From IMG/VR virus record IMGVR_UViG_3300024354_000013, positions 1-64,000 of that record: a stretch of 64,000 nucleotides of DNA; one strand, written 5' to 3'. The position numbers were made by a program, and so were the translations under genes. Shown here in pieces: positions 1,718 through 32,281 of the stretch. Below the pieces are notes generated by a model that worked only from the letters and a program-made list of their open reading frames with translations, did no database searches and had not been told where the DNA came from. Every line of letters starts with the position of its first letter. Within the stretch, counting starts at the first letter, position 1. Source of the stretch: a virus.

Positions 1718-1926
1718 CTGTAAGCAAGAAAAGACATATAGCCAAAACAATCAGCTACAGGATTGTCAGCACACTCATTGGGTTTGGTATTATGTGGCTA
1801 GTGACAGGAAGTGTGAAAATAGGAGCTGCATTTGGTGTAGCTGAGCTAGTGTACAAGCCTATACAATATTACCTACATGAGCGTATTTGGTATAAATGGA
1901 TTAGATATGGACTGAAGAAAGACTAA
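1714..1926 (+). CDS. DUF2061-like small membrane protein
   Basis: This 70-residue basic protein has two membrane segments (about 17-33 and 36-50) and the DUF2061 pattern KTISYRIVST...GFGIMW...AELVYKPIQYYLHERIW. I recall members of this family near sulfate-activation genes in bacteria, and here one overlaps the nucleotidyltransferase stop by 4 bases in the same cassette. Its molecular role is unknown. The 3' end overlaps the convergent epimerase gene by 26 bases. Confidence 0.75.
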   Translation: MTVSKKRHIAKTISYRIVSTLIGFGIMWLVTGSVKIGAAFGVAELVYKPIQYYLHERIWYKWIRYGLKKD

Positions 1927-3357: not shown

Positions 3358-6300
3358 GATTGTATTTTTTTAATTACGTCTTCAGATTTAATAGATGTCT
3401 GACATTCCCATTGTCTGTCTGTTCCTTTATGCACAGGACACCAGTTCCAATCTCCTGCATCAAATCTGTATTCAGCTTTGTTCCAGCATCCATGACATAC
3501 ATTCTCATTAGTAATTCTAATACAGCTAAACTCATGGTCAGCAGCTGTAAAGTTACTAATCATTACCACTTGTTTATTCAGAGCCCAAGCTAACCAGCTT
3601 AGCCCACTGGATAGTCCTATAAAGAACTCACTGTGATGGATAACATTCATGGTGTTCTCCATAGATGTATCTTCAAGCTGTTCACAATTGTCAAAAGGAT
3701 TCTTCTCCTTGGACACATTAACTATCTTATATCCATTCTCATGTAAGAAGTTGATGGTGAGCTGCCAGTCTTCCTTCTGCCAAAACTTACATCCAGCCGT
3801 TGAATTAGTGGCTATTGTAACATATCTACCATATGAATTGTTACCAGGTGTAAAGGCTAAACGTGGTCTAATCTCTTGAAAATCAAGACCTAAGATGTTG
3901 GTTGCTGTCTGTTGGAGGGGAATAGTATTACACAAAGCTGGCTCCTTATTACCATCATAGAACCAACCCACACTGTACATACCAAGGATGTTACCTACAC
4001 CTGTTCCTGGTTCTACAAACTCAAGCTCTGGATAGACACTCTCAAATAGGAAGTTCTTAAATGTGCTCACTGTTACATGGCAATTGTGCTTCCTCTTGAA
4101 CTCAAGTACATATGGCATCCATGCAATTGTGTCTCCTAGTGATTTGCTATCCATAGCTATATAGACACGCTGGCCCTCATAATTGAGTGTATACTCATAG
4201 TATATACTTTCATCCTTCCACACCTTGATGGTCCATTTGGTAAACCATCTCCTGTTGAGCTTCACCCAGTGATTCACCTTTATCTTGTTCTCATAGTGAC
4301 ACACACCCTGCTCATCATAAAATCTGACAGTGAAGGTGCTTTTGGAATTACCTGTTATCTCTAGGAATGGCTCGTGTATAAATGTGTGGGTGATATTAAT
4401 CAGTTCTTTGTCAGGCTGTATGGGTCTATTCATCACCTCCTGATACAGATCAATATGCTTCTGTGCGAAATCAAGCTTCTGTCCTTCAGGAATATCGTAG
4501 CTCACATCTGTATCTAACAGCTGGGTGAGCTGTTCTTTCATCTTTTCAGGCTTCAGATCTGTAATATACTGAGTGAACATGTCTCCATACTGAGGAAGAT
4601 TTCTTGCCAGGATTGGCAGTCCATATCCTATAGCTTCTCTAATCACCAGTGGATTGCATTCAAATGTACTGTTAAACAGGAACACATCTGCAGCTGCCAT
4701 AAACCTACCCACATCATCACGCTCTCCCCATACATGTACATTAGGTGGTATGTCCTTCATAATGGGTTCCCAGTAGTGCTGGAAGTTACCAGCCTGATTA
4801 CCTACAAAGTGGAATTGTACATCTGGCATTTGTCTAGCCAGCTCTACAGCTTCTCCTTGGTTCTTACCAGCAGTCCATAGTCCTACATTAAGCACATGTT
4901 TACCAGGTCCTAGATCTATGGGCTCAGATTCTTTCTTCACGATAGGAAACTCAATCACCTCCTTTCTAGAAGGCATATTAGCAAACGTCTTTAGATGGTG
5001 TGGTGTACAGAACGCATATGCATCTGGATGATAGCGCTTCTCTAAGTCTGGCTTGAACACAATGTTGTGACATGTTTCAATCATCCTCCAGGTTCTATTT
5101 GGACTGTACAGCGCTTGTCTCACCTCTTCTGGCCAGTTGTTCCAGCCATCTTCCACCATCTCATCCACATGCACTATATCTACAGCATGTCTTTTGATGA
5201 TATCAATCACCTCCATCTTATTCTCTCCCAAGGTGTAGAAGTGGTGGGCTATTTCCTTTATCTGATTCTTCTGGACAACAAAGTGATCACTGTGGTTGGA
5301 ATACTCCACAACAATAATCTTAGATTTGGAATAGGCCAACAGATCTGCTATTCTCTCTAAAAGGAAGGCAGGCATTCCACCTGTCGATAGATGTGGTGCC
5401 AGGAATAATATCTTAAGCTGATTCTTCTGGCGCTCTAACATTCTGTACATAGTGACAGCATCCTTTTCTCCGTGATAGAATAGTAACTGGTCTACATCTG
5501 CAGGCACAGCTACAAAATGTGCTAGGTGCTGCTTCTTAGTTCTGAATGTGACATTATTCACTGTGTTCAAGGATCCATTCATGTATATGTATGGTAGTCC
5601 ATCTAATGCCTTGTACTTCCACAGAAGCACGTTAGCTATAGTTTCCTCATGATAGGGAGCATAGTATTGTGGATTCTGTAACACCTTGGGATGGTTACAC
5701 ATCCACCACCAACTGTCAAGGAATTCTTGACAGTATTCACCAGCTACAAAATATCCTGTTTGTCTGTATTTATCTCTGATGTATTGATCTACACCAAACA
5801 GCTCACAAGCTGGATGTTCAAGAGTAGTGGATAGGTCATCTCTACTATCAGCCCCACCTCTTCCATTGCTGATCATCCATTCATATATTCCCTCTGTAAA
5901 ATACGGATAGGCACTCTTCACTGGGAAATAGTCAAATATTCTGTCTACATACTTGGTAGCCACACTATCACTATCCACATAGGCCACTGTTTTAGCATGC
6001 TTTAACGCTTCTTTAACAATTAGTGGGCGCTGGATGAGGATGTTGTAAATGTCTGGATTAGCTCTGTCTATATACTTCTGCTGAGGAAGATCCTTGGTTT
6101 TACAATCCCAACGGAATGTAGCAGCTCCCTTTATATCCACATCTGAGTTGAGCATATAAACCATAACAGGTAGACTGCTAAAGGTTCTAAGAGAATCTAC
6201 GCACGCCTGCACAGTGTCCTTATAGCTCTCTGTAGCATATAAGACATATGCTTTTTCCCATCTAATGTCCTGATTTACATAGTATCCATACCACTGGTTG

Positions 6301-6770
6301 TCATATAGCTTCTCCAGTCCTGGGTAACGCTCTAGCATCACCTCTGGTGTTAGATCTGCCTGGTGGTGGGTTTCATACTCATTTCCATACTCTGCTCCAT
6401 CCTGAGCCATCATATAGGGCACAGCTACAAGAAACCTCTTGTCCATCAGGTCAAAGTCTGTAAGCAGGTTTTTAGCTGTGCCTGAGGGTAGGTGTTCTAG
6501 AATATCCCCTAAGATGATAAAGTCATAGGGTCTAACATCAAAGGTGACAATATCCCCTACATAAACATTATCATATTTAGCTCTCAGATTGAACTGATCT
6601 ACATATGGAGCCCATATCTCTACAGCATCCATCCTATATCCTAAATTCCTTAGCAAATCAGAATATGTTCCCTGTCCAGGACCTACATCTAGAATGCGTG
6701 TTGATAGGGGAATATTGTCTATAAACCACTGCTTTATTTCAGGCTTGAAGTAGGTGTAACTGTTTGGCAT
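3318..6770 (-). CDS. Four-module fusion: methyltransferase, GT-A, GT4, O-heptosyltransferase
   Basis: This is the longest protein of the window (1150 residues from the ATG at 6770). Module 1 (about 1-180) is a SAM methyltransferase with ILDVGPGQGTYSDLL. Module 2 (about 185-440) looks like a GT-A transferase with AYVDSDS as DxD. Module 3 (about 455-790) is GT4-like with FLAPHLSTGGMP and ECNPLVIREAIGYGLP. After a beta-rich linker, module 4 (about 890-1150) is GT9-like and carries the cysteine cluster CHGCWN...GDWNWCPVHKGT...WEC, characteristic of iron-binding autotransporter O-heptosyltransferases (TibC/BAHT), which glycosylate proteins with heptose from ADP-heptose. A consensus promoter (6791-6822) lies just upstream of this start. 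Confidence 0.85.
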   Translation of the reverse strand: MPNSYTYFKPEIKQWFIDNIPLSTRILDVGPGQGTYSDLLRNLGYRMDAVEIWAPYVDQFNLRAKYDNVYVGDIVTFDVRPYDFIILGDILEHLPSGTAKNLLTDFDLMDKRFLVAVPYMMAQDGAEYGNEYETHHQADLTPEVMLERYPGLEKLYDNQWYGYYVNQDIRWEKAYVLYATESYKDTVQACVDSLRTFSSLPVMVYMLNSDVDIKGAATFRWDCKTKDLPQQKYIDRANPDIYNILIQRPLIVKEALKHAKTVAYVDSDSVATKYVDRIFDYFPVKSAYPYFTEGIYEWMISNGRGGADSRDDLSTTLEHPACELFGVDQYIRDKYRQTGYFVAGEYCQEFLDSWWWMCNHPKVLQNPQYYAPYHEETIANVLLWKYKALDGLPYIYMNGSLNTVNNVTFRTKKQHLAHFVAVPADVDQLLFYHGEKDAVTMYRMLERQKNQLKILFLAPHLSTGGMPAFLLERIADLLAYSKSKIIVVEYSNHSDHFVVQKNQIKEIAHHFYTLGENKMEVIDIIKRHAVDIVHVDEMVEDGWNNWPEEVRQALYSPNRTWRMIETCHNIVFKPDLEKRYHPDAYAFCTPHHLKTFANMPSRKEVIEFPIVKKESEPIDLGPGKHVLNVGLWTAGKNQGEAVELARQMPDVQFHFVGNQAGNFQHYWEPIMKDIPPNVHVWGERDDVGRFMAAADVFLFNSTFECNPLVIREAIGYGLPILARNLPQYGDMFTQYITDLKPEKMKEQLTQLLDTDVSYDIPEGQKLDFAQKHIDLYQEVMNRPIQPDKELINITHTFIHEPFLEITGNSKSTFTVRFYDEQGVCHYENKIKVNHWVKLNRRWFTKWTIKVWKDESIYYEYTLNYEGQRVYIAMDSKSLGDTIAWMPYVLEFKRKHNCHVTVSTFKNFLFESVYPELEFVEPGTGVGNILGMYSVGWFYDGNKEPALCNTIPLQQTATNILGLDFQEIRPRLAFTPGNNSYGRYVTIATNSTAGCKFWQKEDWQLTINFLHENGYKIVNVSKEKNPFDNCEQLEDTSMENTMNVIHHSEFFIGLSSGLSWLAWALNKQVVMISNFTAADHEFSCIRITNENVCHGCWNKAEYRFDAGDWNWCPVHKGTDRQWECQTSIKSEDVIKKIQSWNLIGEHQTPYL

Positions 6771-6790
6771 AACTGATTGGCTTTCTGTTA

Positions 6791-6822
6791 CAAAGATAGA
6801 AAAAAGATTTGGTAGTTTCAAA
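6791..6822 (-). promoter_or_regulatory. Bacteroidota-type promoter for the leftward glycan operon
   Basis: On the minus strand TTTG (6822-6819), a 20-base spacer and TATCTTTG (6798-6791) match the TTTG/TAnnTTTG consensus exactly. The site overlaps the rightward promoter at 6808-6839, so polymerases would compete for the same DNA. The inferred transcription start is about 15 bases before the ATG at 6770. Confidence 0.8.
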
Positions 6823-6839
6823 TAAATTACATAGATTTG
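6808..6839 (+). promoter_or_regulatory. Bacteroidota-type promoter for the cupin-heptose operon
   Basis: TTTG (6808-6811), a 20-base spacer and TAGATTTG (6832-6839) match the consensus exactly. The inferred transcript starts near 6844, about 30 bases before the cupin ATG at 6876. An in-frame ATG at 6837 lies inside the promoter and is unlikely to be translated. Confidence 0.8.
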
Positions 6840-6875
6840 CCCCACAAGTGGAGTGTATCCACTTTATGCTATATT

Positions 6876-7223
6876 ATGCACGAACTACATAAAGTTGAGA
6901 AGGGTTGGGGTCACGAACTCTGGATCCATAACTCCCCAGAATACTGCGGAAAACTGCTGGTTTTCAAGGCTGGCAAGAAGTTCTCAATGCACTTCCACAA
7001 GATAAAGCAGGAGAGCTGGTATGTAAGCAAAGGGTCCTTCCAATATACATGGGTGGACATGTCTACAGGCACCCTCTATACAGACTATCTGAAGGAAGGA
7101 GATGCTCTAACCATTATGCCCTACCACCCTCACCAGCTGGAAGCTCTAGAAGATGGCATCATATTTGAGGTGAGTACACAACACTTTGATGAAGATAGCT
7201 ACAGACTATGGAAGGGGGACTAA
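6876..7223 (+). CDS. Cupin sugar-phosphate isomerase-like protein
   Basis: A single-domain cupin of 115 residues. It begins KVEKGWGHELW, the usual opening of type II phosphomannose isomerase-like cupins, and has metal-site motifs FSMHFHKIKQESWYV and, later, YHPHQLEA. Such proteins isomerise sugars or bind sugar phosphates. It overlaps the HldE2-like gene by 16 bases. The window has no recognisable GmhA, so this cupin could supply the heptose-7-phosphate isomerase step; that is inference. The start at 6876 is chosen because the promoter ends at 6839. Confidence 0.72.
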   Translation: MHELHKVEKGWGHELWIHNSPEYCGKLLVFKAGKKFSMHFHKIKQESWYVSKGSFQYTWVDMSTGTLYTDYLKEGDALTIMPYHPHQLEALEDGIIFEVSTQHFDEDSYRLWKGD

Positions 7224-7618
7224 GGGTATGGGTGAATGGAGCATTTGATGTCCTGCATATAGGGCATATTCAACTCCTTAAAAGAGCTAAAGAGTTTGGT
7301 AGTGTGAGAGTGGGTGTTGATAGTGACGCACGTGTTGCAGAATTAAAAGGTGATAGTAGACCATTTAACAAGCTGTCTGACAGAATAGATTTCCTGAAGA
7401 GCATTAGGTATGTGGATGAGATAGTATCATATGATTCTGAGGAAGAGCTCACCAACCAAATCAAACTTTATGAACCAGACATCATGGTGATAGGATCTGA
7501 CTACATGGGAAAAAGAATAGTGGGGGCTGAATATATAACACAGATAGTATTCTTTGACAGAATAGAACATAAATCAACTACATCAATATTAGGGTATGAA
7601 GCTGGTGGTAATAGGTGA
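7208..7618 (+). CDS. HldE2-like heptose 1-phosphate adenylyltransferase
   Basis: A 136-residue nucleotidyltransferase with NGAFDVLHIGH (HxGH), VGVDSDARV, LKGDSRPFNKLSDR and IGSDYMGKRIVG, ending HKSTTSIL. LKGDSRP and the DY..K..VG segment are typical of the RfaE2/HldE C-terminal domain, which makes ADP-D-glycero-beta-D-manno-heptose from heptose 1-phosphate and ATP. The kinase gene follows with a 23-base overlap, so the two halves of bacterial HldE are split and reversed in order here. A glycerol-3-phosphate cytidylyltransferase is less likely but related. Confidence 0.8.
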   Translation: MEGGLRVWVNGAFDVLHIGHIQLLKRAKEFGSVRVGVDSDARVAELKGDSRPFNKLSDRIDFLKSIRYVDEIVSYDSEEELTNQIKLYEPDIMVIGSDYMGKRIVGAEYITQIVFFDRIEHKSTTSILGYEAGGNR

Positions 7619-8336
7619 TGTCTGCAAGGATGTCTTCATCTATGGAGACTGTAAACGCTTAAGTCCAGAAGCACCTGTACCTGTATTTAATCCAGTGGAA
7701 ACAATAGAGAACTCAGGAATGGCTGGTAACGTGGTAGCCAATCTAAGTGCTATCAACCCCAACCTGCAGATAAATTTCCATCACAACTTTGAGAACATTA
7801 CCAAAACCAGGTATGTAGATAAGAAGACCAATCACCTTTTCCTAAGAGTGGACGATGAGCCAAAGGTGAATAGAATATTCCTCACAGCTCAGCTTATTGA
7901 GGATGTAGAAACTGCAGATGCTGTGATTGTGAGTGACTATGACAAGGGATATCTAACAGAAGATGACCTGCAATATATAGCTGTTAAAGCTAAGTGGTCC
8001 ATCTTAGACAGCAAGAAGCATTTAAAACCACACACCATATCAAACTATTCATTCATCAAACTGAATGAATCTGAATACAATAAAAACAAACAGTCTCTAA
8101 TTTACATGAGAGACAAAGTGATAGTGACACTTAGTTCCAAAGGAGCAATGCATAAAGATGTTACATACAGCTCCCCAAGTCCAAAAGAAACTATAGATGT
8201 AAGTGGTGCAGGAGATACGTTCGTTGCAGCATTTACAATTAAATACTTGGAAACCAAAGACATATCTACGTCTATTGAATATGCCAATCTTATGTCATCT
8301 ATTGTGGTGGGTAAGAGAGGTGTTGTAACCCCATAA
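7596..8336 (+). CDS. HldE1-like heptose 7-phosphate kinase (PfkB family)
   Basis: This 246-residue ribokinase-fold protein starts IGDVCKDVFIYGDCKRLSPEAPVPV, and SPEAPVPV is a hallmark of the HldE kinase domain. GMAGNVVANL follows, and the catalytic PfkB signature DVSGAGDTFVAAF sits near residue 200. The reaction is phosphorylation of D-glycero-D-manno-heptose 7-phosphate at O1. It is shorter than the usual 310-residue domain. A hairpin terminator lies just downstream. No heptose bisphosphate phosphatase (GmhB) is visible in the window. Confidence 0.8.
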   Translation: MKLVVIGDVCKDVFIYGDCKRLSPEAPVPVFNPVETIENSGMAGNVVANLSAINPNLQINFHHNFENITKTRYVDKKTNHLFLRVDDEPKVNRIFLTAQLIEDVETADAVIVSDYDKGYLTEDDLQYIAVKAKWSILDSKKHLKPHTISNYSFIKLNESEYNKNKQSLIYMRDKVIVTLSSKGAMHKDVTYSSPSPKETIDVSGAGDTFVAAFTIKYLETKDISTSIEYANLMSSIVVGKRGVVTP

Positions 8337-11953: not shown

Positions 11954-12601
11954 ATGGCCATACCATCCCGTCAGATAGGCTGGGGCACACAGGACAACCT
12001 GCTGTGGCAGATTGCAAAGCAACTGGAGGGAGCCTCTTGTCAGCTCTGTACGTTGAATGATAACATAGCCACTATTACAGGCACCTCTGGTACAAGTGGG
12101 ACTAGTGGTGTTAGCGGATCTAATGGTACATCAGGTACCAGTGGGCTTTCTAGTTTTAAATACGGATCTTTCTATAGCACTGTGGATCAATCACTTGCAA
12201 AGGATGCTATAGGACCTTTTACATTTAACAACACAGACCTAAGTAATGGTGTTAGTGTGGTTTCTAGTTCAAGAATTACACTGGCTAACGCTGGTAAATA
12301 CAACATCCAGTTTAGTGCACAGTTTCATCACATAGGTGGTGGAGGATCTGGGGAAACAGTGAACATATGGCTTGCTAAAAACGGCTCAGATATAGCTGAC
12401 TCAAACACAAGACTCACTATCACCTCTAGTACTAAGTATAGTGTGGCAGCCTGGAACTTCTTTGTAGATGCTTCAGGAGGAGACTATTATGAAATCATCT
12501 GGTCTACAGATAATGCCAATATAAAAATAGAACATGAGGCTGCTGGTGTGCATCCTGCTATACCATCAATAATTTTAACAGTCAATCAAATAGGAATATA
12601 A
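11954..12601 (+). CDS. Putative virion appendage protein with GTSG repeats
   Basis: The 215-residue protein has three parts. An N-terminal module (1-36) has MAIPSRQIGWGT...LLWQIAKQLEG and ends CQLC. A low-complexity region of GTSG-type repeats (about 42-70) follows. The C-terminal domain (about 72-215) is beta-rich and resembles C1q/TNF-like jelly rolls seen in phage tail fibres and capsid decorations (ANAGKYNIQFSAQF, VNIWLAKNGSDI). It is probably a surface-exposed structural protein. The N-terminal module is repeated in the next gene. Ser/Thr in the linker could be glycosylated, which is inference. Confidence 0.6.
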   Translation: MAIPSRQIGWGTQDNLLWQIAKQLEGASCQLCTLNDNIATITGTSGTSGTSGVSGSNGTSGTSGLSSFKYGSFYSTVDQSLAKDAIGPFTFNNTDLSNGVSVVSSSRITLANAGKYNIQFSAQFHHIGGGGSGETVNIWLAKNGSDIADSNTRLTITSSTKYSVAAWNFFVDASGGDYYEIIWSTDNANIKIEHEAAGVHPAIPSIILTVNQIGI

Positions 12602-12602
12602 C

Positions 12603-12752
12603 ATGGCAATACCATCAAGGGGCATAGGTTGGGGTACAACGGAGAACTTGTTGTGGCAAATTAGCAAACAGCTGGAAGGAATATCTTGCCAGCTTTGTGA
12701 TTTGAATAACAATTTCACTACCACCACAACCACCACCACATCACCAGTGTAA
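12603..12752 (+). CDS. 49-residue paralogue of the appendage N-terminus with poly-Thr tail
   Basis: The protein begins MAIPSRGIGWGTTENLLWQI, closely matching the first 36 residues of the preceding gene including CQLC. It then ends in a threonine run and SPV instead of the GTSG linker and jelly-roll domain. It may be an alternative, shorter decoration using the same docking module. A terminator follows directly. Confidence 0.65.
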   Translation: MAIPSRGIGWGTTENLLWQISKQLEGISCQLCDLNNNFTTTTTTTTSPV

Positions 12753-12756
12753 TATT

Positions 12757-12799
12757 TTGCGCAAAGTACCTAAAACAGGTACCGTTCGCAAATTTTTTA
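12757..12799 (+). terminator. Rho-independent terminator
   Basis: GTACCT and AGGTAC form the hairpin core around AAAAC, extended outward by TTGCG pairing with CGCAA. A T6 tract follows at 12793-12798. It ends the short operon started at 11954. Confidence 0.85.
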
Positions 12800-12817
12800 T
12801 AACCAACAAAACTACAT

Positions 12818-13834
12818 ATGAAGGATTTAAAGTATGTTTGTGTTCAGCCTGACGACACCTATTACACATGGCAGGTGCATTTATGGTTGGAGAGCCTTAG
12901 AAAAAGAAACGAATCTGACAAGGCTATTGTTCTTATATTCATTCCTAATTACAGAGAAAAGAATCCAAAATGGCAACAGGTGATTGACCTGTATCCAGAA
13001 GCTGAGTTTCATTTCTACAAGGATGAACATGATGTGAGTCAATTGTTAGGAATCTACATTCCTGTATTAAGACCTTATACTCTCTGGAGACACTGGAAAG
13101 AGCATCCAGAACTAAGTGATAAGGCAATATTCTACTGTGACTCAGACATCCTCTTTACAGAGAAGTTTGATGTTCAAAAGTACATAGATGACGATGTTTG
13201 CTATCTCTCTGAAACTACAAGCTACATAAGCGCTGCATATTTTGACAGCAAGGTGAAGGATGTCCTTCCTGAGAAGCTGGAAGAATACAAGACAAGAGAT
13301 ATTCTTGCAGAAATTGGTAGTGTGATTGGCATAAGTAGGGAGGAAGCAGAAGCTAAGAACAATGACTCTGGTGGAGCTCAATACCTCCTTAAGAATGTAG
13401 ACTCTAAGTTCTGGAACAAGGTGATGAATGACTGCATCCTCATTAGGAGTTATCTACAGAAAGTGAACAAAGAATATTTTGAGAACGAAAACAAAGGATT
13501 CCAAAGCTGGTGTGCTGATATGTGGGCTGTGCTGTGGAACCTGTGGGTGAGAGAAAAAGAAGTGAAGGTGATTGAAGAAATGGGATTCAGCTGGGCCCCA
13601 GATCCTGTCACTAAGCTTGAAACACACCCCATCCTTCATAATGCAGGAATTGTAAGCACATCTATGGATGGTTACAATTGCTTCTATAAAGGTAAATACC
13701 ACCAAGGAACAGATCCTTCAAAGGATGAACACTTGGATGCTGTACTAAATGATGAGAAATCAAAGACAAGGTGCACATGGTATTACACAAACGAATTAAA
13801 AAATCTTTTTAACAAATATAACCTAAACTATTAA
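12818..13834 (+). CDS. GT-A glycosyltransferase, possibly protein O-linked
   Basis: This 338-residue protein has a nucleotide-sugar transferase fold with the DxD motif FYCDSDILF near residue 110 and a second conserved patch SWCADMWAVLWNLW near residue 230. The pattern resembles peptidyl-serine galactosyltransferase or hydroxyproline arabinosyltransferase relatives, though that is a recalled similarity and not a search result. It sits between genes for three proteins with Thr-rich tails, so those are attractive acceptors. It is cytoplasmic, with no signal peptide. Confidence 0.72.
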   Translation: MKDLKYVCVQPDDTYYTWQVHLWLESLRKRNESDKAIVLIFIPNYREKNPKWQQVIDLYPEAEFHFYKDEHDVSQLLGIYIPVLRPYTLWRHWKEHPELSDKAIFYCDSDILFTEKFDVQKYIDDDVCYLSETTSYISAAYFDSKVKDVLPEKLEEYKTRDILAEIGSVIGISREEAEAKNNDSGGAQYLLKNVDSKFWNKVMNDCILIRSYLQKVNKEYFENENKGFQSWCADMWAVLWNLWVREKEVKVIEEMGFSWAPDPVTKLETHPILHNAGIVSTSMDGYNCFYKGKYHQGTDPSKDEHLDAVLNDEKSKTRCTWYYTNELKNLFNKYNLNY

Positions 13835-13851
13835 CCATTAAATTTTTTACA

Positions 13852-14067
13852 ATGGGAGGCATTAATTCTCGTCCTTTAAAAGCTTATGTCCGCTTCGATG
13901 GAAGTGGCAGAATAGTTGCAGGTAGTCTCATTCTCAGAAGAAAGAAGCCCAAGGTAGGTAAGTGGGTGGAAATTCCAGCTTATGAGTGCTGCAATCCAAC
14001 AACTACTTCAACAACAACTGTAGCACCAACTACAACAACAACTACAACAACTGAGGGTCCTCGTTAA
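13852..14067 (+). CDS. Thr-rich tailed small protein, copy A
   Basis: Residues 8-47 form a compact basic beta-rich domain (KAYVRFDGSGRIVAGSLI... KVGKWVEI) ending in Cys-Cys. The last 23 residues are almost all Thr, Ser, Val, Ala and Pro, a mucin-like tail. It is about 60 percent identical to the next gene across the folded part. A probable exported or virion protein, with the tail a plausible O-glycosylation substrate for the adjacent glycosyltransferase. Confidence 0.65.
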   Translation: MGGINSRPLKAYVRFDGSGRIVAGSLILRRKKPKVGKWVEIPAYECCNPTTTSTTTVAPTTTTTTTTEGPR

Positions 14068-14078
14068 AATTATAAAAA

Positions 14079-14285
14079 ATGGCAAATCAAAGTAAACTGA
14101 AAGCGTATGTACGTTTTGATGGTACAGGACGCGTTATTGCTGGTAGTTTAATCTTACAGAGATTCAAACCAAAGGTGGGTAATTGGGTGGAGATTGCAGC
14201 TAATGAATGCTGTAATTATACAACCACTACCACTACAACTGTTGCTCCAACTACTACAACTACAACCACAGCACCAATTGAATAA
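14079..14285 (+). CDS. Thr-rich tailed small protein, copy B
   Basis: A tandem paralogue of the preceding gene: KAYVRFDGTGRVIAGSLIL is nearly the same, Cys-Cys is kept, and the tail again runs through TTTTTTT and APTTTT. The two genes are 11 bases apart. Retention of the tail in both copies despite divergence elsewhere suggests that threonine content is selected. Confidence 0.65.
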   Translation: MANQSKLKAYVRFDGTGRVIAGSLILQRFKPKVGNWVEIAANECCNYTTTTTTTVAPTTTTTTTAPIE

Positions 14286-14287
14286 TT

Positions 14288-14701
14288 ATGGCAAAATCAT
14301 TATTTCCTTCTGACATGCTGAAGAGTGGTGGAGGAGAAATGTCTCTAGAAACTATAGCTGGGAAGCTTACATACTTTCATGAGCAGCTACATCTTTTACA
14401 CTGGCAGACAAGTTCATATGCAGAACACCAAGCTCTTGGTGGATTGTACGATTATGTACACGATTTTAAGGATGGGGTGATTGAGAAACTTATGGGCTAC
14501 ATGGGCAAGCGTCCCAAAGCACCAAAGATGGAACCTCTGTCTGACTCAGCAAGTGCTAGTCTGGTGGTCAGCGAGCTTATGAGTTTCGCCTCAAGCCTTA
14601 AAAGCTATGCTGAGAGCAATGGGTATCATGACATTTCAAACCTAGCTGATTCCCTCAGTGGTGAGGCTGCAAAGACCAAATATCTCCTAACCCTATCCTA
14701 A
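14288..14701 (+). CDS. Dps/ferritin-like protein (DUF5856-like)
   Basis: The 137-residue all-helical protein contains YFHEQLHLLHWQTSSYAEHQALGGLYD, the helix pattern of Dps-like ferritin folds with His, Glu and Asp residues suited to a metal site. Phage members may bind iron or DNA. It lies 3 bases after a Thr-rich gene and overlaps the next gene by one base. Confidence 0.65.
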   Translation: MAKSLFPSDMLKSGGGEMSLETIAGKLTYFHEQLHLLHWQTSSYAEHQALGGLYDYVHDFKDGVIEKLMGYMGKRPKAPKMEPLSDSASASLVVSELMSFASSLKSYAESNGYHDISNLADSLSGEAAKTKYLLTLS

Positions 14702-14988
14702 TGATCGTAAGCAAACGATTCTTCCCTCCTGTGATGAACGACAATGAGCAAGCTTATTTTGCTCATCTAGAGGGAGTGATAAGTTCCGTGGATGAATTAA
14801 GCACCCTTGAGATAACCAAGAACCCCCACTCTTATCACTTTAGGTTGGTACCCAGTGTACCGATGTATAACCAAATGCTGTTAGAAGAGATATTAAAACT
14901 ACATAATGTGTTCCAAATCAAGCTCAAGCTATCCAAGAGCATCAAGAGTTCAGCAACCATAGCATTCGAGATAAGTTTGGAAAATTAA
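14701..14988 (+). CDS. Hypothetical protein of 95 residues
   Basis: A mixed alpha/beta protein with no motif I recognise. It is translationally coupled to the Dps-like gene (stop-start overlap), and a promoter for the next operon overlaps its last codons. Confidence 0.55.
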   Translation: MIVSKRFFPPVMNDNEQAYFAHLEGVISSVDELSTLEITKNPHSYHFRLVPSVPMYNQMLLEEILKLHNVFQIKLKLSKSIKSSATIAFEISLEN

Positions 14989-15346: not shown

Positions 15347-15772
15347 ATGGCGAAGATTAAAAAGTATCAGATTGGTGGTAAAGCAAAAGCTAAACCAGAT
15401 TCAGTGGAGAGCGAGATGTTTCCTGGGAAGAAAATCCCAAGATCTCAATCCAACTATGCCACTGGTAGAATAGCTAAGATGGCTGAGGCTGGTAAACCTA
15501 AGGTGGTGGCTATTAAGAAAGCAGCTGTTCCAAAGAAGAAACTTGGAGGTAAGCTTGCTAAACAAGCTGCTACAGCAATTGCTATGAAGAAGAAAGGCAT
15601 AAAGCCTAAAATGGATAAGGCTAAAGGTGGTAAAGAGATGATTAAGCGTGCTGACGGAAGCTATTCACAACGTGGTTTGTGGGATAATATTCGTGCCAAC
15701 AAAGGAAGTGGAAAGAAGCCAACTTCAGCAATGCTCAAACAAGAACGTAAAATAAAAGCTAAAGGTAAATAA
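15347..15772 (+). CDS. Lysine-rich protein 1 (MAKIKKYQ tag)
   Basis: A 141-residue, strongly basic protein beginning MAKIKKYQIGGKAKAKPD, with a middle part rich in Ala, Lys and Gly that recalls histone H1-like bacterial tails. It has a conserved-looking C-terminal segment (ADGSYSQRGLWDNIRANKG). Likely to bind nucleic acid or to be an internal virion protein, inferred from composition. It starts the array of five similar genes. Confidence 0.65.
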   Translation: MAKIKKYQIGGKAKAKPDSVESEMFPGKKIPRSQSNYATGRIAKMAEAGKPKVVAIKKAAVPKKKLGGKLAKQAATAIAMKKKGIKPKMDKAKGGKEMIKRADGSYSQRGLWDNIRANKGSGKKPTSAMLKQERKIKAKGK

Positions 15773-15773
15773 C

Positions 15774-16130
15774 ATGGCAAAAATGAAGAAAGCCCAAGCT
15801 GGCTTAAAAGCTTCTACAAAGCGTGTAGGTCCTGTTGATCCTTCAGGAGCATGGACAAAGGTGCAGGAAATGAACCTTCCTCCACGTAATGTAAAGACCA
15901 AGGTGAGTCTTACAAAGGACAAAGAACAAGGAGCTACATCTATGGCCAAGGGTGGTAAGTGGATTCAGAAGGCTATTAAGAAGCCTGGAGCTCTACGTAA
16001 GTCACTTGGTGCTAAACCTGGTAAACCCATCCCTGCTGGTAAGCTTGCAAAAGCTGCTAAGGCTAAGGGTAAACTTGGTCAGCGTGCTAGATTAGCAATG
16101 ACTCTCAAGAAAATGAGCAAAAAGAAATAA
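15774..16130 (+). CDS. Lysine-rich protein 2 (MAKMKKAQAG tag)
   Basis: 118 residues starting MAKMKKAQAGLKAS, with GGKWIQKAIKKPGALRKSLG in the centre and an alanine/lysine-rich end. Very basic. Same tag and composition as its neighbours. The stop overlaps the start of the next gene by one base. Confidence 0.65.
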   Translation: MAKMKKAQAGLKASTKRVGPVDPSGAWTKVQEMNLPPRNVKTKVSLTKDKEQGATSMAKGGKWIQKAIKKPGALRKSLGAKPGKPIPAGKLAKAAKAKGKLGQRARLAMTLKKMSKKK

Positions 16131-16612
16131 TGCCAACTATCAAGAAACTCTTGAAGGTTGCTCCTAGAATGCGCAACACACTTCCTCAGAATGTAACAAA
16201 GGGGAATGGTGTAAAGAACCCACAGAAGGCATCTGCTTACGTGGGAAAGGGTGTGTTGAAGAATGGTGATACAATTGCAGCTGTCAAGGGGGCTATTACA
16301 CCCGTACCCAACGGACCATTGATTAAGAAGAAGGGTCCATATGCTGGATCTACACTTAAGAAGGGTGGAAAGGTGACTGTGATGGCTGGTGGTGAGAAGC
16401 ATGTTGTATATAAGAAGACCAGTCCAACAGGTGTTGGTAAGGGAAAGAAAGGAAACATCATGGTGAATCATCCTACAAAGGATAAGGGTAAATGGGACAC
16501 CATAGATCTCACAAAAATAGGAAGAGCCAAGACTGTCAAACAGGGTGTAGCTGCTACCAAGAAATGGCACAGAGACAATCCTGATTATAAATACAAAGGC
16601 AAAAAGAAATAA
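16130..16612 (+). CDS. Lysine-rich protein 3
   Basis: 160 residues beginning MPTIKKLLKVAPRMRN, a variant of the family tag. Two glycine-rich beta-like segments (NGDTIAAVKGAITPVPNG; GGKVTVMAGGEKHVVYKK) suggest a small folded core, and a basic WHRDNPDYKYKGKKK closes it. Function unknown; operon position suggests the same process as the other array proteins. Confidence 0.6.
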   Translation: MPTIKKLLKVAPRMRNTLPQNVTKGNGVKNPQKASAYVGKGVLKNGDTIAAVKGAITPVPNGPLIKKKGPYAGSTLKKGGKVTVMAGGEKHVVYKKTSPTGVGKGKKGNIMVNHPTKDKGKWDTIDLTKIGRAKTVKQGVAATKKWHRDNPDYKYKGKKK

Positions 16613-16614
16613 CC

Positions 16615-17073
16615 ATGGCTAGGATTAAAAAAGCACAGAAAGGAGATACTCTCAGAGCATCTGTTGCCACATTCAAAAGCAGAATTGGAGACACCGCTGC
16701 TGTAAAGAAGAAAGCAGATTCTCTTGGACTCTCCACTGACAAGGTGAGGAGTGCTCTTAAGGCTAGAATAGCTGCTAAGAAGCAACGTTCTGGTGGTAAG
16801 ACACCAGCTTGGCAAAGAAAGGAAGGAAAGAATCCTTCAGGTGGTTTGAATGCAAAAGGTGTAGCGAGCTACAGAGCTGCTAATCCTGGATCTAAGCTTA
16901 AGACTGCTGTTACAACCAAACCATCTAAACTAAAACCTGGAAGCAAAGCTGCTAACAGACGTAAGAGTTTCTGTGCTAGAATGTCTGGTATGAAGAAAAG
17001 ACTGACATCTGCCAAAACTGCTAATGATCCAAACAGCAGAATTAATAAGTCTCTTCGTAAATGGAATTGCTAA
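16615..17073 (+). CDS. Lysine-rich protein 4 (DUF6321-like)
   Basis: After the tag MARIKKAQKGD the 152-residue protein contains TPAWQRKEGKNPSGGLNAKG, SFCARMSGMKKRLTSAK and NDPNSRINKSLRKWNC, which match the DUF6321 domain found in phages and some large viruses. The cysteine-containing C-terminus is well ordered compared with the basic linkers. Function unknown; packaging or DNA condensation is a guess from charge. Confidence 0.7.
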   Translation: MARIKKAQKGDTLRASVATFKSRIGDTAAVKKKADSLGLSTDKVRSALKARIAAKKQRSGGKTPAWQRKEGKNPSGGLNAKGVASYRAANPGSKLKTAVTTKPSKLKPGSKAANRRKSFCARMSGMKKRLTSAKTANDPNSRINKSLRKWNC

Positions 17074-17094
17074 CATTTAAAAACTTAAATAACA

Positions 17095-17592
17095 ATGGCA
17101 AAAATTAAGAAATATCAAGACGGTGGTAAGTCCTCCCTTGGTATGAAATCTGTTAAAGCTGGATATGATAAGAATCCTGGTGTAACAAGGGCAGACATTA
17201 TTGTAGCTGCTAAGAAGGAAGCTAAATCAGGAGCAAAGGTTAAGAAGGCTCAAGCTGGTAGCAAAGTGGCTCTTCGTACAGCTCAATTGAGAAGACTAGG
17301 CAGACTTTCTGCTAAGAACCCAGCTAAGGCAGAACAAGTGGGATCTAAGATGGTAGAGAAAGCTACACGCGTATCACGTGGTAAAGACTACTTGAAGAAG
17401 AACATCAGCAGTCTTATGCCTGAATCACGCAAGGGTAGCAAGGTGAAGAAAGCACGTAACGGAGCTACACTATCTCCTTCTAAAAAGAGTGTTTCTTCTG
17501 AGCTCGGTAGCTATAAGCGTGTAGCTGGAAAGAACCTTTCTAAGATGAAGATGGGTGGTTCTATGAAAAAATGCAGAGGAGGTTGCTATTAA
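17095..17592 (+). CDS. Lysine-rich protein 5 with repeated KVKKAQAG motifs
   Basis: 165 residues opening MAKIKKYQDGGKSSLG. The tag recurs internally as AKVKKAQAGSK and SKVKKARNGAT, and the end is KKCRGGCY. Recurrence of the motif inside one chain suggests that it is a binding or processing element, not merely a start-site artefact. Confidence 0.65.
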   Translation: MAKIKKYQDGGKSSLGMKSVKAGYDKNPGVTRADIIVAAKKEAKSGAKVKKAQAGSKVALRTAQLRRLGRLSAKNPAKAEQVGSKMVEKATRVSRGKDYLKKNISSLMPESRKGSKVKKARNGATLSPSKKSVSSELGSYKRVAGKNLSKMKMGGSMKKCRGGCY

Positions 17593-17734: not shown

Positions 17735-17763
17735 TTATTGTTTCATAGTGTTGTTTGTTTAAT

Positions 17764-17797
17764 AAAAGCCTCTTTTATCAAGAGGCTTTTTTATTTT
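17764..17797 (+). terminator. Terminator of the lysine-rich array
   Basis: AAAAGCCTCTT (17764-17774) pairs with AAGAGGCTTTT (17780-17790) around a 5-base loop, with T-rich sequence after it. A textbook rho-independent terminator. Confidence 0.9.
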
Positions 17798-17803
17798 CAT
17801 CAT

Positions 17804-18436
17804 ATGGTAAAACTAACATGTATATGTCCTGTGTGGAAAAGACCACAGAGAACTATCAGAGCCATAGAGTCTGTTGTAGCCCAGAAGTTTGATGGTTGGG
17901 AGGCGCTGTTTATTGGAGACAAATGCCCAGAGTTTCAAAAGAATATTGACGAGGGTGTATTTAAGAAATACGAAGAACAGGTGGCAGCTACAGGCAATCA
18001 CATCCTCTTCCATAATATGGATGAACATTTTGGTGGATGGGGACATGGAGCACGCAAATATGGTATTGACATAGCTCAAGGAGAATATGTATGCTTCCTA
18101 GACAACGATGATGTCCTATTACCAAATCATTTTGAGAACTATTACAGCTTTATGCAAGAGAATCCAGACATTCACGCAGGCTATTTTAATGCACGTACAG
18201 AGCCCTGGAAAAAGAACAGAACATCTTGTCTATCTAGAGGAGGCATTGGAAATGCAGAACTTATGATAAGAACAGATGTGCTCAGGAAAAACTATAGGCT
18301 AGATCCAGAATATGAACACGACTGGAGACTGGTGGATAGGATGTTAAACTACGGATATAAGTTTAAGAAGAGCAAAGCTGCTCCTACATACATCATCATG
18401 AGTGTTCCTAACTACCGAGAAACCACTATTGACTAA
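17804..18436 (+). CDS. Family 2 glycosyltransferase
   Basis: 210 residues with the GT2 opening KLTCICPVWKRPQRTIRAIESV, the acidic metal site CFLDNDDVLLPNHF, and EHDWRLVDRM later. The start at 17804 is chosen because upstream codons lie in the terminator hairpin. It transfers a sugar from a nucleotide donor; donor and acceptor are unknown. The stop overlaps the next glycosyltransferase start. Confidence 0.82.
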   Translation: MVKLTCICPVWKRPQRTIRAIESVVAQKFDGWEALFIGDKCPEFQKNIDEGVFKKYEEQVAATGNHILFHNMDEHFGGWGHGARKYGIDIAQGEYVCFLDNDDVLLPNHFENYYSFMQENPDIHAGYFNARTEPWKKNRTSCLSRGGIGNAELMIRTDVLRKNYRLDPEYEHDWRLVDRMLNYGYKFKKSKAAPTYIIMSVPNYRETTID

Positions 18437-19116
18437 TGATTACAGTGATTATTCCTGCTTACAAGGCAACCAAATACATAGATGAATGTCTTGCATCCCT
18501 GCAAGGGGCTGAGATATTAGTGGGAATAGATAATTGTAAAGAAACTTTTGACCATTTAGTGGGTAGAACAGACATAAAATCGTTCTATTTTGCACAAAAT
18601 GTGGGACCGTTTGTTGTTAAAAACACATTAATAGACGAAGCTTCTAATGATAAAATCCTGTTCTTTGATTCTGATGATGTGCTTGCAGAGGGTGTGCTAG
18701 ACAGAATAGAACAGGCGCTCAATATTGTAGACTATATAAAGCTCAATTACATCAACTTTACACACAATATAAATCCTAAAGGACATGTAATGAATGATGC
18801 TGTAATAGCCATCAATCGTCCTGTGTTTAATGAGTTGAATGGATTCCAACCATGGAGATGTGGAGCTGATACAGAGCTAGCTAAGCGCCTTGAGTTCAAT
18901 AAGAAGAAACATATAGTGCTAGATGATGTAACGTATTACAGAAGACTGCATGATAACAATCTCACTCTTAGGAAGGAAACAGGACATGGTTCTGTCATAA
19001 GACAGAAATATGTTCAATACATTGCTGCACACGAAAGATCTAAACAGTGGGAAAACCCAACACATAAACACACACAAGGATATGTTACTTATACAACAAC
19101 CCATAGAGGAGCTTAA
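18436..19116 (+). CDS. Family 2 glycosyltransferase
   Basis: 226 residues with MITVIIPAYKATKYIDECL, the DxD-type ILFFDSDDVLAEGV near residue 80, and FQPWRCGADTELAKRLE as the acceptor-side motif. It is coupled to the upstream GT2 gene by a 1-base overlap, and the beta-propeller gene starts inside its 3' end. Probably both transferases extend one glycan. Confidence 0.82.
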   Translation: MITVIIPAYKATKYIDECLASLQGAEILVGIDNCKETFDHLVGRTDIKSFYFAQNVGPFVVKNTLIDEASNDKILFFDSDDVLAEGVLDRIEQALNIVDYIKLNYINFTHNINPKGHVMNDAVIAINRPVFNELNGFQPWRCGADTELAKRLEFNKKKHIVLDDVTYYRRLHDNNLTLRKETGHGSVIRQKYVQYIAAHERSKQWENPTHKHTQGYVTYTTTHRGA

Positions 19117-19948
19117 AATAGCTCCTGAAGTGACAGTAGGAAATAGAAAGAGATATTCTACAGCCACAGCTGTAGCATGGATAAATGATAACAAACTTGT
19201 ATCAGCTGCCTTTAATAGCAGGAATATATATCTAATAGAGCTGAAAGACGATGGTACATCGCAGATATTGGATGTTATAAAAGCCCCATACAATCCAGAC
19301 TTGATGGATTATAAAAATGGTATGATAGTCACATCAGACTATCCTTATTCAGATCAACATGGACATGCGTCCATATTTGATGTTGTAGATGATAAGATAG
19401 TGTACAGGAAGAGCATTACACTTCCTAACACCAAGTCTCATGGCTGTGAGATAGTGGATGATAACACTGTCATCATCACTAGTAACAGTGACCACAATAA
19501 AGGCTGCCTGTTTGTAGACATCAATAAGGGGATAGTTAAAAGCACCCTAACAAACATGGACCACTATCCAAAAGATGCCTATATAAAGGATGACAGACTC
19601 TTAGTGATATGTGCAAAGAGTCTTCCCCAGATAGGACAAACCACCGTGATTGGTGAGTCTGTGCTCTACCTATTTGACCTATCTACATTAAGTAGAATTA
19701 GTGAGGTGAGATTTCATGGACAGACTGACTCTCTCACCATGGATGGAAATGATGTGTTCATAACCATCCAAGGAGATGATACAGTGGCACATTGCACACT
19801 GATGGATGATGTATTGTCTTATTTTGGTAGAACTGGTGGATTCAACTTCCCACACGGTATAGATGCCCTAAATGGTAAAGTGGCTGTCACAAACTATGGA
19901 GACAACACTATTAGGATATATAACAAGGAAGAACTAAAGACCAATTAA
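19082..19948 (+). CDS. Beta-propeller protein (YVTN/SMP-30-like)
   Basis: This 288-residue protein is made of repeated four-stranded blades, seen as repeating segments such as KLVSAAFNSRNIYLIEL, GMIVTSDYPYSDQHGHASIFDV and KVAVTNYGDNTIRIYN. No enzyme motif is clear. Within a glycosyltransferase cluster it could bind or sense glycan, or act as a lactonase-like fold; neither is shown. The start at 19082 leaves a 35-base overlap with the upstream gene. Its 3' end overlaps the convergent gene by 15 bases. Confidence 0.65.
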   Translation: MLLIQQPIEELKIAPEVTVGNRKRYSTATAVAWINDNKLVSAAFNSRNIYLIELKDDGTSQILDVIKAPYNPDLMDYKNGMIVTSDYPYSDQHGHASIFDVVDDKIVYRKSITLPNTKSHGCEIVDDNTVIITSNSDHNKGCLFVDINKGIVKSTLTNMDHYPKDAYIKDDRLLVICAKSLPQIGQTTVIGESVLYLFDLSTLSRISEVRFHGQTDSLTMDGNDVFITIQGDDTVAHCTLMDDVLSYFGRTGGFNFPHGIDALNGKVAVTNYGDNTIRIYNKEELKTN

Positions 19949-20587
19949 TGTCTTATAAGAGGATGCTGATGTAGCATTTTTCATGTAATACATAAACTCT
20001 TCACTAGCCTTAGCTTCCTCTATAGAGAATTCCCATGGGTAGTGTCTGGCCACATATGGAAATGTTGTAGACCCTCCACCTATAAAATACCCACCTAGCC
20101 TATATAGAGCAAACGTGGTATCTATTTGCACCTCAAGCGCCACATCTTCTTTAACAGGAGATTTCTGCCACCTGTCTCTTTCATACAAATGCAGACGGTT
20201 ATAATAGGGAGACTTGCTCTCCACCCTCTGCCAATCTAATCCTAACCCCACCTTATTCAATTCTAGGCTGTTCAATCTATCCTGCAGATAGAGAAGTGTG
20301 TCATTGGGTGTCTCTTCTAACCCCATGTCTGGGTCTGTAACAACATATGGACAGTCTTTAAACTGCCCCACTACACCCGCTAACCAGGGAGCAGCTACCC
20401 CTACATTATTATTTAACCTCATTATTGTACAGGGGTTGGTTGCATACCATTCTAGAAGAGGGGGATAGGTGGAGGCATTATCCACAATAATCACATCCCC
20501 CACCCCGTCATATTCTTTTATTCTCTCCACCATAGCCTTAGGCCATGTGAGCAGATTTCTGTTATTTATTATAACTGGAATGTTCAT
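19934..20587 (-). CDS. Family 2-like glycosyltransferase
   Basis: 217 residues with a GT-A opening MNIPVIINNRNLLTWPKAM, IIVDNASTYPPLLEWY, the NNNVGVAAPWL motif and the DxD-like VVTDPDMGLEE. The last part (GGYFIGGGSTTFP) is typical of rhamnosyl- or galactosyl-type GT2 relatives. It is the last gene of a leftward glycan cluster and overlaps the upstream methyltransferase by 4 bases. Confidence 0.75.
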   Translation of the reverse strand: MNIPVIINNRNLLTWPKAMVERIKEYDGVGDVIIVDNASTYPPLLEWYATNPCTIMRLNNNVGVAAPWLAGVVGQFKDCPYVVTDPDMGLEETPNDTLLYLQDRLNSLELNKVGLGLDWQRVESKSPYYNRLHLYERDRWQKSPVKEDVALEVQIDTTFALYRLGGYFIGGGSTTFPYVARHYPWEFSIEEAKASEEFMYYMKNATSASSYKTLIGL

Positions 20588-21120
20588 CTCTTTTGTATGA
20601 TAAGAAGTTTAGCATCGTTTACAAGGGTCATAAAGTGATCACGTCCATCTAACCACTCAGTGATCCTCTTGATAGTATCTTGTCTATTGGCATGTCCAGC
20701 GTGTAAATCTTCAATAAAATAATATCCTCCTACTCTCAGATCTTCCCATAGTATTTTGAACGAAGCTACAATGTGATCACCCACATGACTTCCATCATCA
20801 ATAATAAAATGGGGTGCTCCACTTTTATCTATAACTCCTTTCATAAACTGTTTGTCTGACTGGTCTCCTATGTATATATTGAATCCAGACACATGGTTGT
20901 GCACATTAGGATCAATATCCACAGCATGTATGTCCAGTTCAGGATTGTATTCTCTCCACATTCTGAGAGAGTCCCCATGCCATATTCCTATTTCTAGGAG
21001 TATATATCTTCCTGTCTCAGGAATGTACATATCATACACCTGTGTATATCCATGCTTCTCGTAGTGTTCTGTACCCTTGTCAGTTTTATTACGATTGGCA
21101 ATTTCTGTAAGTCTTCTCAT
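20584..21120 (-). CDS. Class I SAM-dependent methyltransferase (macrocin-type)
   Basis: 178 residues beginning IANRNKTDKGTEHYEKHGYTQVY, with LEIGIWHGDSLRMW as the SAM loop, VDIDPNV at strand 2 and HFIIDDGSHVGDH. This series resembles demethylmacrocin O-methyltransferases that methylate sugar hydroxyls. Its place between two glycosyltransferase genes supports a sugar substrate. Confidence 0.75.
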   Translation of the reverse strand: MRRLTEIANRNKTDKGTEHYEKHGYTQVYDMYIPETGRYILLEIGIWHGDSLRMWREYNPELDIHAVDIDPNVHNHVSGFNIYIGDQSDKQFMKGVIDKSGAPHFIIDDGSHVGDHIVASFKILWEDLRVGGYYFIEDLHAGHANRQDTIKRITEWLDGRDHFMTLVNDAKLLIIQKR

Positions 21121-21124
21121 AAAA

Positions 21125-21691
21125 TTAGTTGTGTACGAATAACACTTTATTAATTTTCACAATGGGCTCGTCAGGGAACATCTCTCTGAACTTATTCACA
21201 AACCACCCATCAGCATCATATCTAACACCCAGCTCAATCTGCTGAGCTAAGTCTCTACGCGTGGCAAATGCTCCCATGTCAATTCTCCCATTGGCAGGCT
21301 CACATTGAAAATATGCATAGTCATAATGGGAATGCACCATATCCCAATAAATCATTCCTGGATTATTATTAGACGCAAGGGCTATTTCTTTTATGAAGTT
21401 GGGAGTGTAATAGTTGTCATCTCCCGTCATTACAACATACTGGGCACTGCTCTGTTGCTTTCCATACTCCCTTGGTGTATGGCCAAAGTTGTTATAACGT
21501 ATGTTCATCTTTGACCACATGATTCTCTTGTCCATTAAGCTTTGTACAAGCTGTACATTCTCTACATCCTCTGGATTGTCAATAACAACGTGTGCCACCC
21601 AGTCTGGATGGGTTTGTGCTAATAGAGACAACAACATGCTTTTTAAGGGAACAATGCGATTATATGTTGGAATTATGAAGTCTACTAACAT
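21125..21691 (-). CDS. Family 2 glycosyltransferase
   Basis: 188 residues with VDFIIPTYNRIVPLKSMLLSLLAQTH and the metal site YVVMTGDDNYYTPNF. It is compact, lacking extensions of larger GT2 enzymes. The 5' end overlaps the upstream glycosyltransferase by 32 bases. Donor and acceptor unknown. Confidence 0.78.
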   Translation of the reverse strand: MLVDFIIPTYNRIVPLKSMLLSLLAQTHPDWVAHVVIDNPEDVENVQLVQSLMDKRIMWSKMNIRYNNFGHTPREYGKQQSSAQYVVMTGDDNYYTPNFIKEIALASNNNPGMIYWDMVHSHYDYAYFQCEPANGRIDMGAFATRRDLAQQIELGVRYDADGWFVNKFREMFPDEPIVKINKVLFVHN

Positions 21692-22421
21692 AGTCTTTCA
21701 GCATTTGTGTGTAGTCGTGATTCCAATGAGGCTTAAGCTCTATTTCTCCTGTAGGTATTTTACCCTGCGCTCTTAAGTTTTCTACGTGTAAACTATGTCT
21801 TTGTATGACATTGGGTTTGCCAGGAACATCGTGTCCTTGTCCAGACATGTGATATCCTCTGCCTCCCCACATATAAAACCAACTAGCTTCTTCTTTAGGA
21901 GGAGATGCAAAGAGTCTTCCACCATGAGCATGTAAACGTTCTATGAATGTCATATCATATCCAGCATTCTCAATAGGATGGCCACCTATGGCTTCCCATG
22001 CAGACTTCCTAAATACAATACCAGAATTCCCTATCCATGTAATATCTGTTATTCTATCACCATTAAAGAACACTCCTGGGTTCCAATGCATGATGTTCAC
22101 ATCATCTGTGAAATATTTAGCTACATTCTGTAAATGCCAAGGAACAGCAACATCATCATCATCCCACTGGCATATAATATCTCCTTTACAGATGTCTGTA
22201 GCGTAGTTTTCTTTGTCACCAATGGTGCTAAAGGTGTAATCCAGGTTGTATATTCTCACCTGTGGATGATTATATCTCAGCTTCTGCAGAGGATAGTCAT
22301 TCACTATAACTAGCTCACACCTGTCTGCAGGGTAGTCCTGCTTGAGGAAAGAATGTAAACTCTCCTCAAGCGTATCCACCCTACCATAAGTGATCATTTT
22401 ACATGATATTAGTGGCAGCAT
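21660..22421 (-). CDS. Family 2 glycosyltransferase
   Basis: 253 residues beginning LPLISCKMITYGRVDTLEESL, with ICQWDDDDVAVPWHLQ as the acidic metal-binding site and WIGNSGIVFRKSAWEAIGG. The start at 22421 keeps the first beta strand; an internal ATG at 22397 would truncate it. First gene of the leftward glycan cluster. Confidence 0.8.
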   Translation of the reverse strand: MLPLISCKMITYGRVDTLEESLHSFLKQDYPADRCELVIVNDYPLQKLRYNHPQVRIYNLDYTFSTIGDKENYATDICKGDIICQWDDDDVAVPWHLQNVAKYFTDDVNIMHWNPGVFFNGDRITDITWIGNSGIVFRKSAWEAIGGHPIENAGYDMTFIERLHAHGGRLFASPPKEEASWFYMWGGRGYHMSGQGHDVPGKPNVIQRHSLHVENLRAQGKIPTGEIELKPHWNHDYTQMLKDYVSRLHNSNI

Positions 22422-32263: not shown

Positions 32264-32281
32264 GTTGTTTGTTTTTGAATT

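Follow-up and report, generated by a model that had tools for sequence, protein, structure and literature searches.

Three small proteins with threonine-rich tails, and a glycosyltransferase-like gene lying among them, very probably make up a phage self-glycosylation module, in which the enzyme encoded at 12818 would O-glycosylate poly-Thr tags and virions would thereby gain a mucin-like glycan coat. Catalysis, threonine as the acceptor residue, the sugar donor, and the biological role are all things we infer, from sequence comparisons and predicted structure. An earlier note on the same DNA had proposed the tails as O-glycan acceptors of this enzyme; the proposal is supported by synteny, by a tag association that crosses phyla, by correlated presence and absence, and by a confident GT-A model.

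The window analyzed here is the whole 64,000-nt stretch, positions 1 to 64,000 of an IMG/VR virus record (IMGVR_UViG_3300024354_000013) that is 110,063 bp in all; of the 46 kb lying beyond it, 40 kb was also covered. The phage can be classed as crAss-like because the nearest relatives of its terminase are those of Leptolyngbya phage Lbo-JY46, Cellulophaga phages phi17:2/phi4:1, and crAss-like phages. Virion genes, including those for the portal and major head proteins, are found at 53.6-63.7 kb and further on, and there is a RIIA/RIIB-like gene pair at 30725-34582. A nucleotide search of phages with the whole region gave no match.

The module and its immediate neighbors are encoded on the + strand. 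First comes a 215-aa protein (11954-12601) with an N-terminal “IGW” domain of ~35 aa, a collagen-like GTSGTSG linker, and a C-terminal beta domain; then a 49-aa protein (12603-12752) in which the IGW domain runs directly into a Thr tail (T8, 12717-12740). The glycosyltransferase gene (12818-13834) follows, and after it two paralogues with a “KAYVRFDG” domain: a 71-aa product (13852-14067) with a Thr tail at 13999-14052, ending in TTTSTTTVAPTTTTTTTTEGPR, and a 68-aa product (14079-14285) with a (T7)VAP(T7) tail at 14220-14270, ending in TTTTTTTVAPTTTTTTTAPIE. Two conserved downstream neighbors are a gene for a Dps/ferritin-like DUF5856 protein (14288-14701; PF19174, E 8.7e-14; phrog_858), syntenic in 41 of the 42 relatives described below, and one for a 95-aa protein (14701-14988), syntenic in most of them, for which Pfam and PHROG searches gave no match. 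Beside the module (15347-17592) is a series of paralogues that are small, very basic, and rich in Lys/Ala/Gly (MAKIKKYQ.GGK...); homologues of the one at 15347 are present in 80 of 118 relative loci.

The glycosyltransferase-like gene at 12818, already pointed out in the earlier note, is real. Its product matches PHROG 4417 over nearly its full length (profile positions 1-290 of 293, E 1.3e-52), a family with no functional annotation (“unknown function”). A search of NCBIfam found no family, and a PDB sequence search with the glycosyltransferase profile found a chance match only. An AlphaFold2 model from 46 sequences (pLDDT 96.6, pTM 0.93) has a GT-A fold, and the solved structures matching it best are glycogenin (Z 14.6, rmsd 3.7, 230 residues aligned), LgtC (Z 14.2), Skp1 galactosyltransferase, UGGT, and GlyE (Z 13.1), all with Z of 13-14.6 over ~210-250 residues. 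After a core strand of the model there is a DxD motif (DSD, residues 108-110, nt 13139-13147), the combination expected of a GT-A enzyme; D108 and D110 are invariant in the 46 sequences, and in the C-terminal motif (H274-N-A-G...F289-x-K291-G), conservation reaches 90% or more at H274, G277, F289, and K291. No Pfam family is matched at E <= 1, GT8 included, so GT8 is named here by fold only: as modeled, the product is GT8-like in fold and is not a member of the GT8 family by sequence. A GT-A fold alone leaves the acceptor undefined, as it is common to enzymes acting on sugars and on proteins.

The Thr-rich tails reported for the 12603, 13852, and 14079 products are present in the ORFs and their translations, which are the only ones in the window above the Thr-tract threshold. 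The Thr/Ser linker reported for the 11954 product turns out instead to be a collagen-like GTSGTSGTSG, not of the mucin type. This product matches PHROG 30509 (“collagen like minor tail”) at E 1.6e-7, with Pfam scores for collagen-like (E 0.0066) and BclA_C (E 0.0083) both under the cut-off; by these similarities it is a probable fiber or decoration protein, and its domain layout recurs in relatives (e.g., L033). The N-terminal domain that it has in common with the 12603 product (MAIPSRxIGWGT..NLLWQI.KQLEG.SCQLC.LN) had not been remarked on in the earlier note; homologues of the 12603 product occupy the same place in most relatives. As for the 13852/14079 pair, thought to diverge in the folded part and keep the tails, the tails are indeed kept, although at different lengths, but the folded part shows no such divergence: the two are 77-78% identical, and relatives too show high conservation of the domain. 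A model of the 14079 product has a small beta structure (pLDDT ~88 over residues 11-40) and a tail without predicted structure; the KAY domain model, with pTM 0.47, is too small and uncertain for a fold search. Protein searches of named phages with the tail-domain and IGW-domain queries gave no match.

With the 14079 product as query, a set of 42 viral contigs (freshwater relatives) was found, with enzyme identities of 47-76%. The gene order in these is IGW-domain gene(s), enzyme, KAY-domain gene(s), Dps-like gene, and 14701 homologue. The enzyme lies between Thr-tailed genes in 41, the remaining contig being truncated; in a few relatives, one flanking gene is cut off or undetected. When contigs were seeded independently by the enzyme, a Thr tract was found within 1.5 kb of it in 75 of 76, and tracts of eight other residues in only 0-14 apiece, so that the pairing of enzyme and Thr tract cannot be put down to chance, in loci that are partly redundant and were collected by family-based queries.

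More distant homologues of the enzyme (23-50% identity) are found at 47 loci in cellular genomes, mostly in prophages of Bacillota and Bacteroidota. In 34 of these a poly-Thr ORF lies within 200 bp of the glycosyltransferase gene; the corresponding figure for any other residue is 0-1. Among the neighbors bearing tags are a major tail protein of the phi13 type (TIGR01603, E 2.7e-38) and a major capsid protein of the HK97 type (TIGR01554, E 3.1e-12). In the Bacillota relatives, then, a phage glycosyltransferase is linked to candidate acceptor regions on capsid or tail proteins encoded beside or near it, which is the general mark of phage virion glycosylation, whereas in the window phage it is small proteins that carry the tags. 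The virion location assumed in the earlier note is accordingly firm for the Bacillota relatives, whose tagged proteins are major capsid and major tail proteins; for the carriers in the window phage, we infer it from fusions to collagen- or fiber-like domains and from the tagging of capsid and tail proteins in the homologous systems.

The same pattern of enzyme and tag is found in several named phages (phiFL1A, 1706, R9.1, iLp84, VPE25, bIL285, SA2, TPWB06, and Iacchus). The C-terminal ends are TTTTTTTQASSK in phiFL1A gp50, TTTTTTTTTTHHD in 1706 orf13, TTTTTTTTTTAGK in the VPE25 tail protein, and TTTTTTTTTRHD in orf50 (a probable tail protein) of bIL285, an L. lactis IL1403 phage whose glycosyltransferase gene is orf45; in R9.1 and iLp84, Thr tags terminate both capsid and tail proteins. 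Among Bacillota phages, where two proteins from the same phage both have tails, these share end residues in 0.37 of pairs, against 0.08 in shuffled ones (0 of 5000).

Some other arrangements were seen among these homologues. In SA2 and TPWB06 (L378:4117-4930 and L379:4164-4926), the Thr tail of the tail protein stops at CCC-TAA, and the +1 frame runs into a long Thr-rich ORF; the layout reads as if +1 programmed frameshifting gave some tail subunits a long poly-Thr extension. In seven loci from Bacteroidota cellular genomes (L130, L132, L133, L134, L138, L146, and L172), the glycosyltransferase homologue makes up the N-terminal portion of a larger protein, in most cases of 480-590 aa. These proteins are encoded in operons resembling those for peptide natural products, with a C39-peptidase-type ABC transporter, a LanC-like protein, and Thr/Ser/Cys-rich GG-leader peptides, the components varying by locus; the fusions may represent a branch of the enzyme family that glycosylates peptides. 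A Chitinophaga locus (L128) has two adjoining glycosyltransferase-like genes (4057-4875 and 4977-6032), a KAY-like protein, and a Ser/Thr-rich tract.

Co-occurrence of tag and enzyme was assessed in one phi13-type tail-protein family, collected with a query lacking the tails (102 loci). Both are present in 37 loci and neither in 61; none has a tailed protein without the enzyme, and four have the enzyme without the tail. In those four, poly-Thr is on another ORF: L135, L137, and L372 have it on one adjoining the enzyme, and in L373 the capsid and connector proteins carry it. Two tail-protein loci lacking the enzyme have a poly-Thr-like ORF, one of which is a connector tail (L305). Fisher's test gives p 1.7e-15 for the first 80 loci, a statistic that ignores relatedness. 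The best tree has 13-14 state changes, at least five of them forced by starred (well-supported) branches; these branches provide just five independent pairs, of which four agree and none opposes (p 0.125), too few to give the phylogeny-corrected test much power.

In an unbiased scan for poly-(ACN), the phrog_4417 enzyme was found with just 5 of 67 poly-Thr viral stretches, many of the stretches being short, wrong-frame, or high-GC noise. Poly-Thr by itself is a weak marker of the enzyme, and not a specific one; the association is strong from enzyme to tag, and holds in both directions within the one tail-protein family. A 5-kb contig without a phrog_4417 glycosyltransferase (L231) has matched poly-Thr-AP tails on two proteins, and it may be that other glycosyltransferase families use the same poly-Thr tag.

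Among other explanations, the one that survives best, improbable as it is, takes the Thr tracts to be unmodified flexible spacers or hinges, with the glycosyltransferase acting on the host cell wall, teichoic acid, LPS, or DNA and linked to them only by late-gene position. Some contigs do have poly-Thr without a phrog_4417 glycosyltransferase, and some of the tracts are internal linkers: in many relatives they join the same docking domains to S74 chaperone or Fib_succ_major C-terminal domains or to others, such as LRR in a further protein. C-terminal tags join nothing, however, and these account for 67 of the 73 Thr tracts near the enzyme in cellular-genome loci and for 98 of the 114 in KAY proteins (the other 16 being internal). 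Thr is used exclusively, whereas spacers are normally Gly, Ser, or Pro; and in the one tail-protein family examined the tag never occurs unless the enzyme does, even where the enzyme and its tagged neighbor have a different place among the genes (L372).

A second and very unlikely explanation is that the tails are glycosylated by an O-glycosylation system of the Bacteroidota host, with the phage enzyme merely extending the glycan or having some other role. Bacteroidota possess general protein O-glycosylation, with the sequon D-S/T-A/I/L/V/M/T, and the window does have further sugar genes. However, the three window tails include no Asp-Thr/Ser sequon, nor any Asp at all; Bacillota phages have the same tag and glycosyltransferase family; and the host system modifies proteins that are exported, whereas for phage capsid and tail proteins both synthesis and assembly take place in the cytoplasm.

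One group of these sugar genes is a sugar-metabolism cluster at 77-8336, with sulfotransferase, APS-kinase-like, and nucleotidyltransferase genes followed by an ADP-heptose-type set, namely HldD-like (1901-2764), HldE domain II-like (7208-7618), and HldE domain I-like (7596-8336) genes. The cluster also has genes for an FkbM methyltransferase (2704-3357) and a 1175-aa methyltransferase+GT4+GT9 protein, heptosyltransferase-like (3318-6845). Of 118 relative loci, 37 have a homologue of the 1175-aa protein; HldE-like genes were not found near the glycosyltransferase in relatives. The cluster might supply or extend virion glycans. Further along, at 17738-22421, are more GT2-type glycosyltransferase genes (17738, 18436, 21125, and 21660), a methyltransferase gene (20584), and a beta-propeller-like one (19010), all variable in relatives.

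The Thr tracts also have internal features that bear on their origin. Their codons are mixed at random, with adjacent identical codons at a frequency of 0.346 against 0.343 expected (0.266 against 0.274 in Bacillota). Run lengths in the window's group are exactly T7 in 228 of 343 cases, with a peak at 6-7 in Bacillota, and the runs are most often separated by VAP or AAP. The tracts thus lack the identical-codon runs and broad length distributions of simple sequence repeats, and since codon order is random and run length peaked, they are constrained at the protein level and not produced by slippage. The earlier note had said that tails varying as freely as simple repeats among relatives would count against it; scrambled codons and a run length sharply centered on seven are the opposite of this. 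That the tails are functionless (ACN)n slippage products is scarcely credible: the number of units does differ among relatives' tails, but the codon mix is random, the run length peaks at 7 or 6-7, and the tails are retained across phyla, tracking the glycosyltransferase.

Self-glycosylation of the tags, the explanation preferred here, would begin with transfer of a sugar by the 12818 enzyme from a nucleotide-sugar donor straight onto threonines of the poly-Thr tag. The tags are T6-8 runs, often as TTTTTTTxAP repeats, that would either end virion-associated proteins or lie in their linkers, with CNYTTTTTTTVAPTTTTTTTAPIE as a candidate acceptor peptide of this type. In the crAss-like window phage, the tagged 12603, 13852, and 14079 products would be small dedicated carriers, for which two docking domains recur as the base; this enzyme family is accompanied in Bacillota phages by tags directly on major tail and major capsid proteins. 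The predicted outcome is a particle bearing a mucin-like brush of glycans, which would probably shield it or modulate how its surface interacts. More generally, it seems likely that a portable poly-Thr tag and a dedicated cytoplasmic O-glycosyltransferase are found across Bacteroidota and Bacillota phages; that any virion protein (capsid, tail tube, connector, or small carrier) can be tagged; and that tag and enzyme are gained and lost jointly, the result being a mucin-like coat.

The unannotated family phrog_4417 would in this way receive a proposed function. An acceptor tag for virion O-glycosylation would be readable from sequence, making glycosylated phages predictable from their genomes; the prediction covers the cultured phages VPE25, bIL285, phiFL, 1706, iLp84, and Iacchus. 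If it is true, virion self-glycosylation extends beyond mycobacteriophages to crAss-like and Bacillota phages, by way of an independent enzyme family, and a small cytoplasmic glycosyltransferase acting on any T7-tagged protein would be a useful tool for glycoengineering.

Several known systems invite comparison. The tails resemble eukaryotic mucin domains in their dense Thr/Pro tracts, with TTTTTTTxAP-like repeats as presumed O-glycan acceptors, but the resemblance is compositional only: these are phage proteins, with a different enzyme. A neighboring protein in iLp84 (L380:4620-4997) matches the Pfam “Mucin” family at E 8.5e-5, below the cut-off. The GT8-type enzymes glycogenin, LgtC, Skp1 galactosyltransferase, and GlyE (which acts on a pneumococcal serine-rich-repeat adhesin) share with the 12818 product the GT-A fold, the DxD, and a C-terminal His motif, but at ~7-13% sequence identity, and it is the 12818 enzyme that is tied to phage poly-Thr tags. 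Another comparison is with the mycobacteriophages, in which phage glycosyltransferases are described as modifying capsid and tail-tube subunits at their C-termini (Freeman et al., 2023, cited in PMC12619734 and PMC13313380). In that system, as described there for Che8 gp108-110, the likeness lies in phage-encoded glycosyltransferases that target capsid and tail C-termini. The Che8 enzymes, however, match Pfam GT2 (with a methyltransferase) and GT25 and not the phrog_4417 profile, whose HMM scores below zero on gp108-110; they are encoded far from the structural genes, and poly-Thr tails are lacking from the capsid and tail proteins of Che8. No report of poly-Thr tags or of the phrog_4417 glycosyltransferase family was found in the open-access papers searched. 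Phage virion glycosylation is already known, from mycobacteriophages and with unrelated enzymes; the pairing of phrog_4417 with poly-Thr appears to be new.
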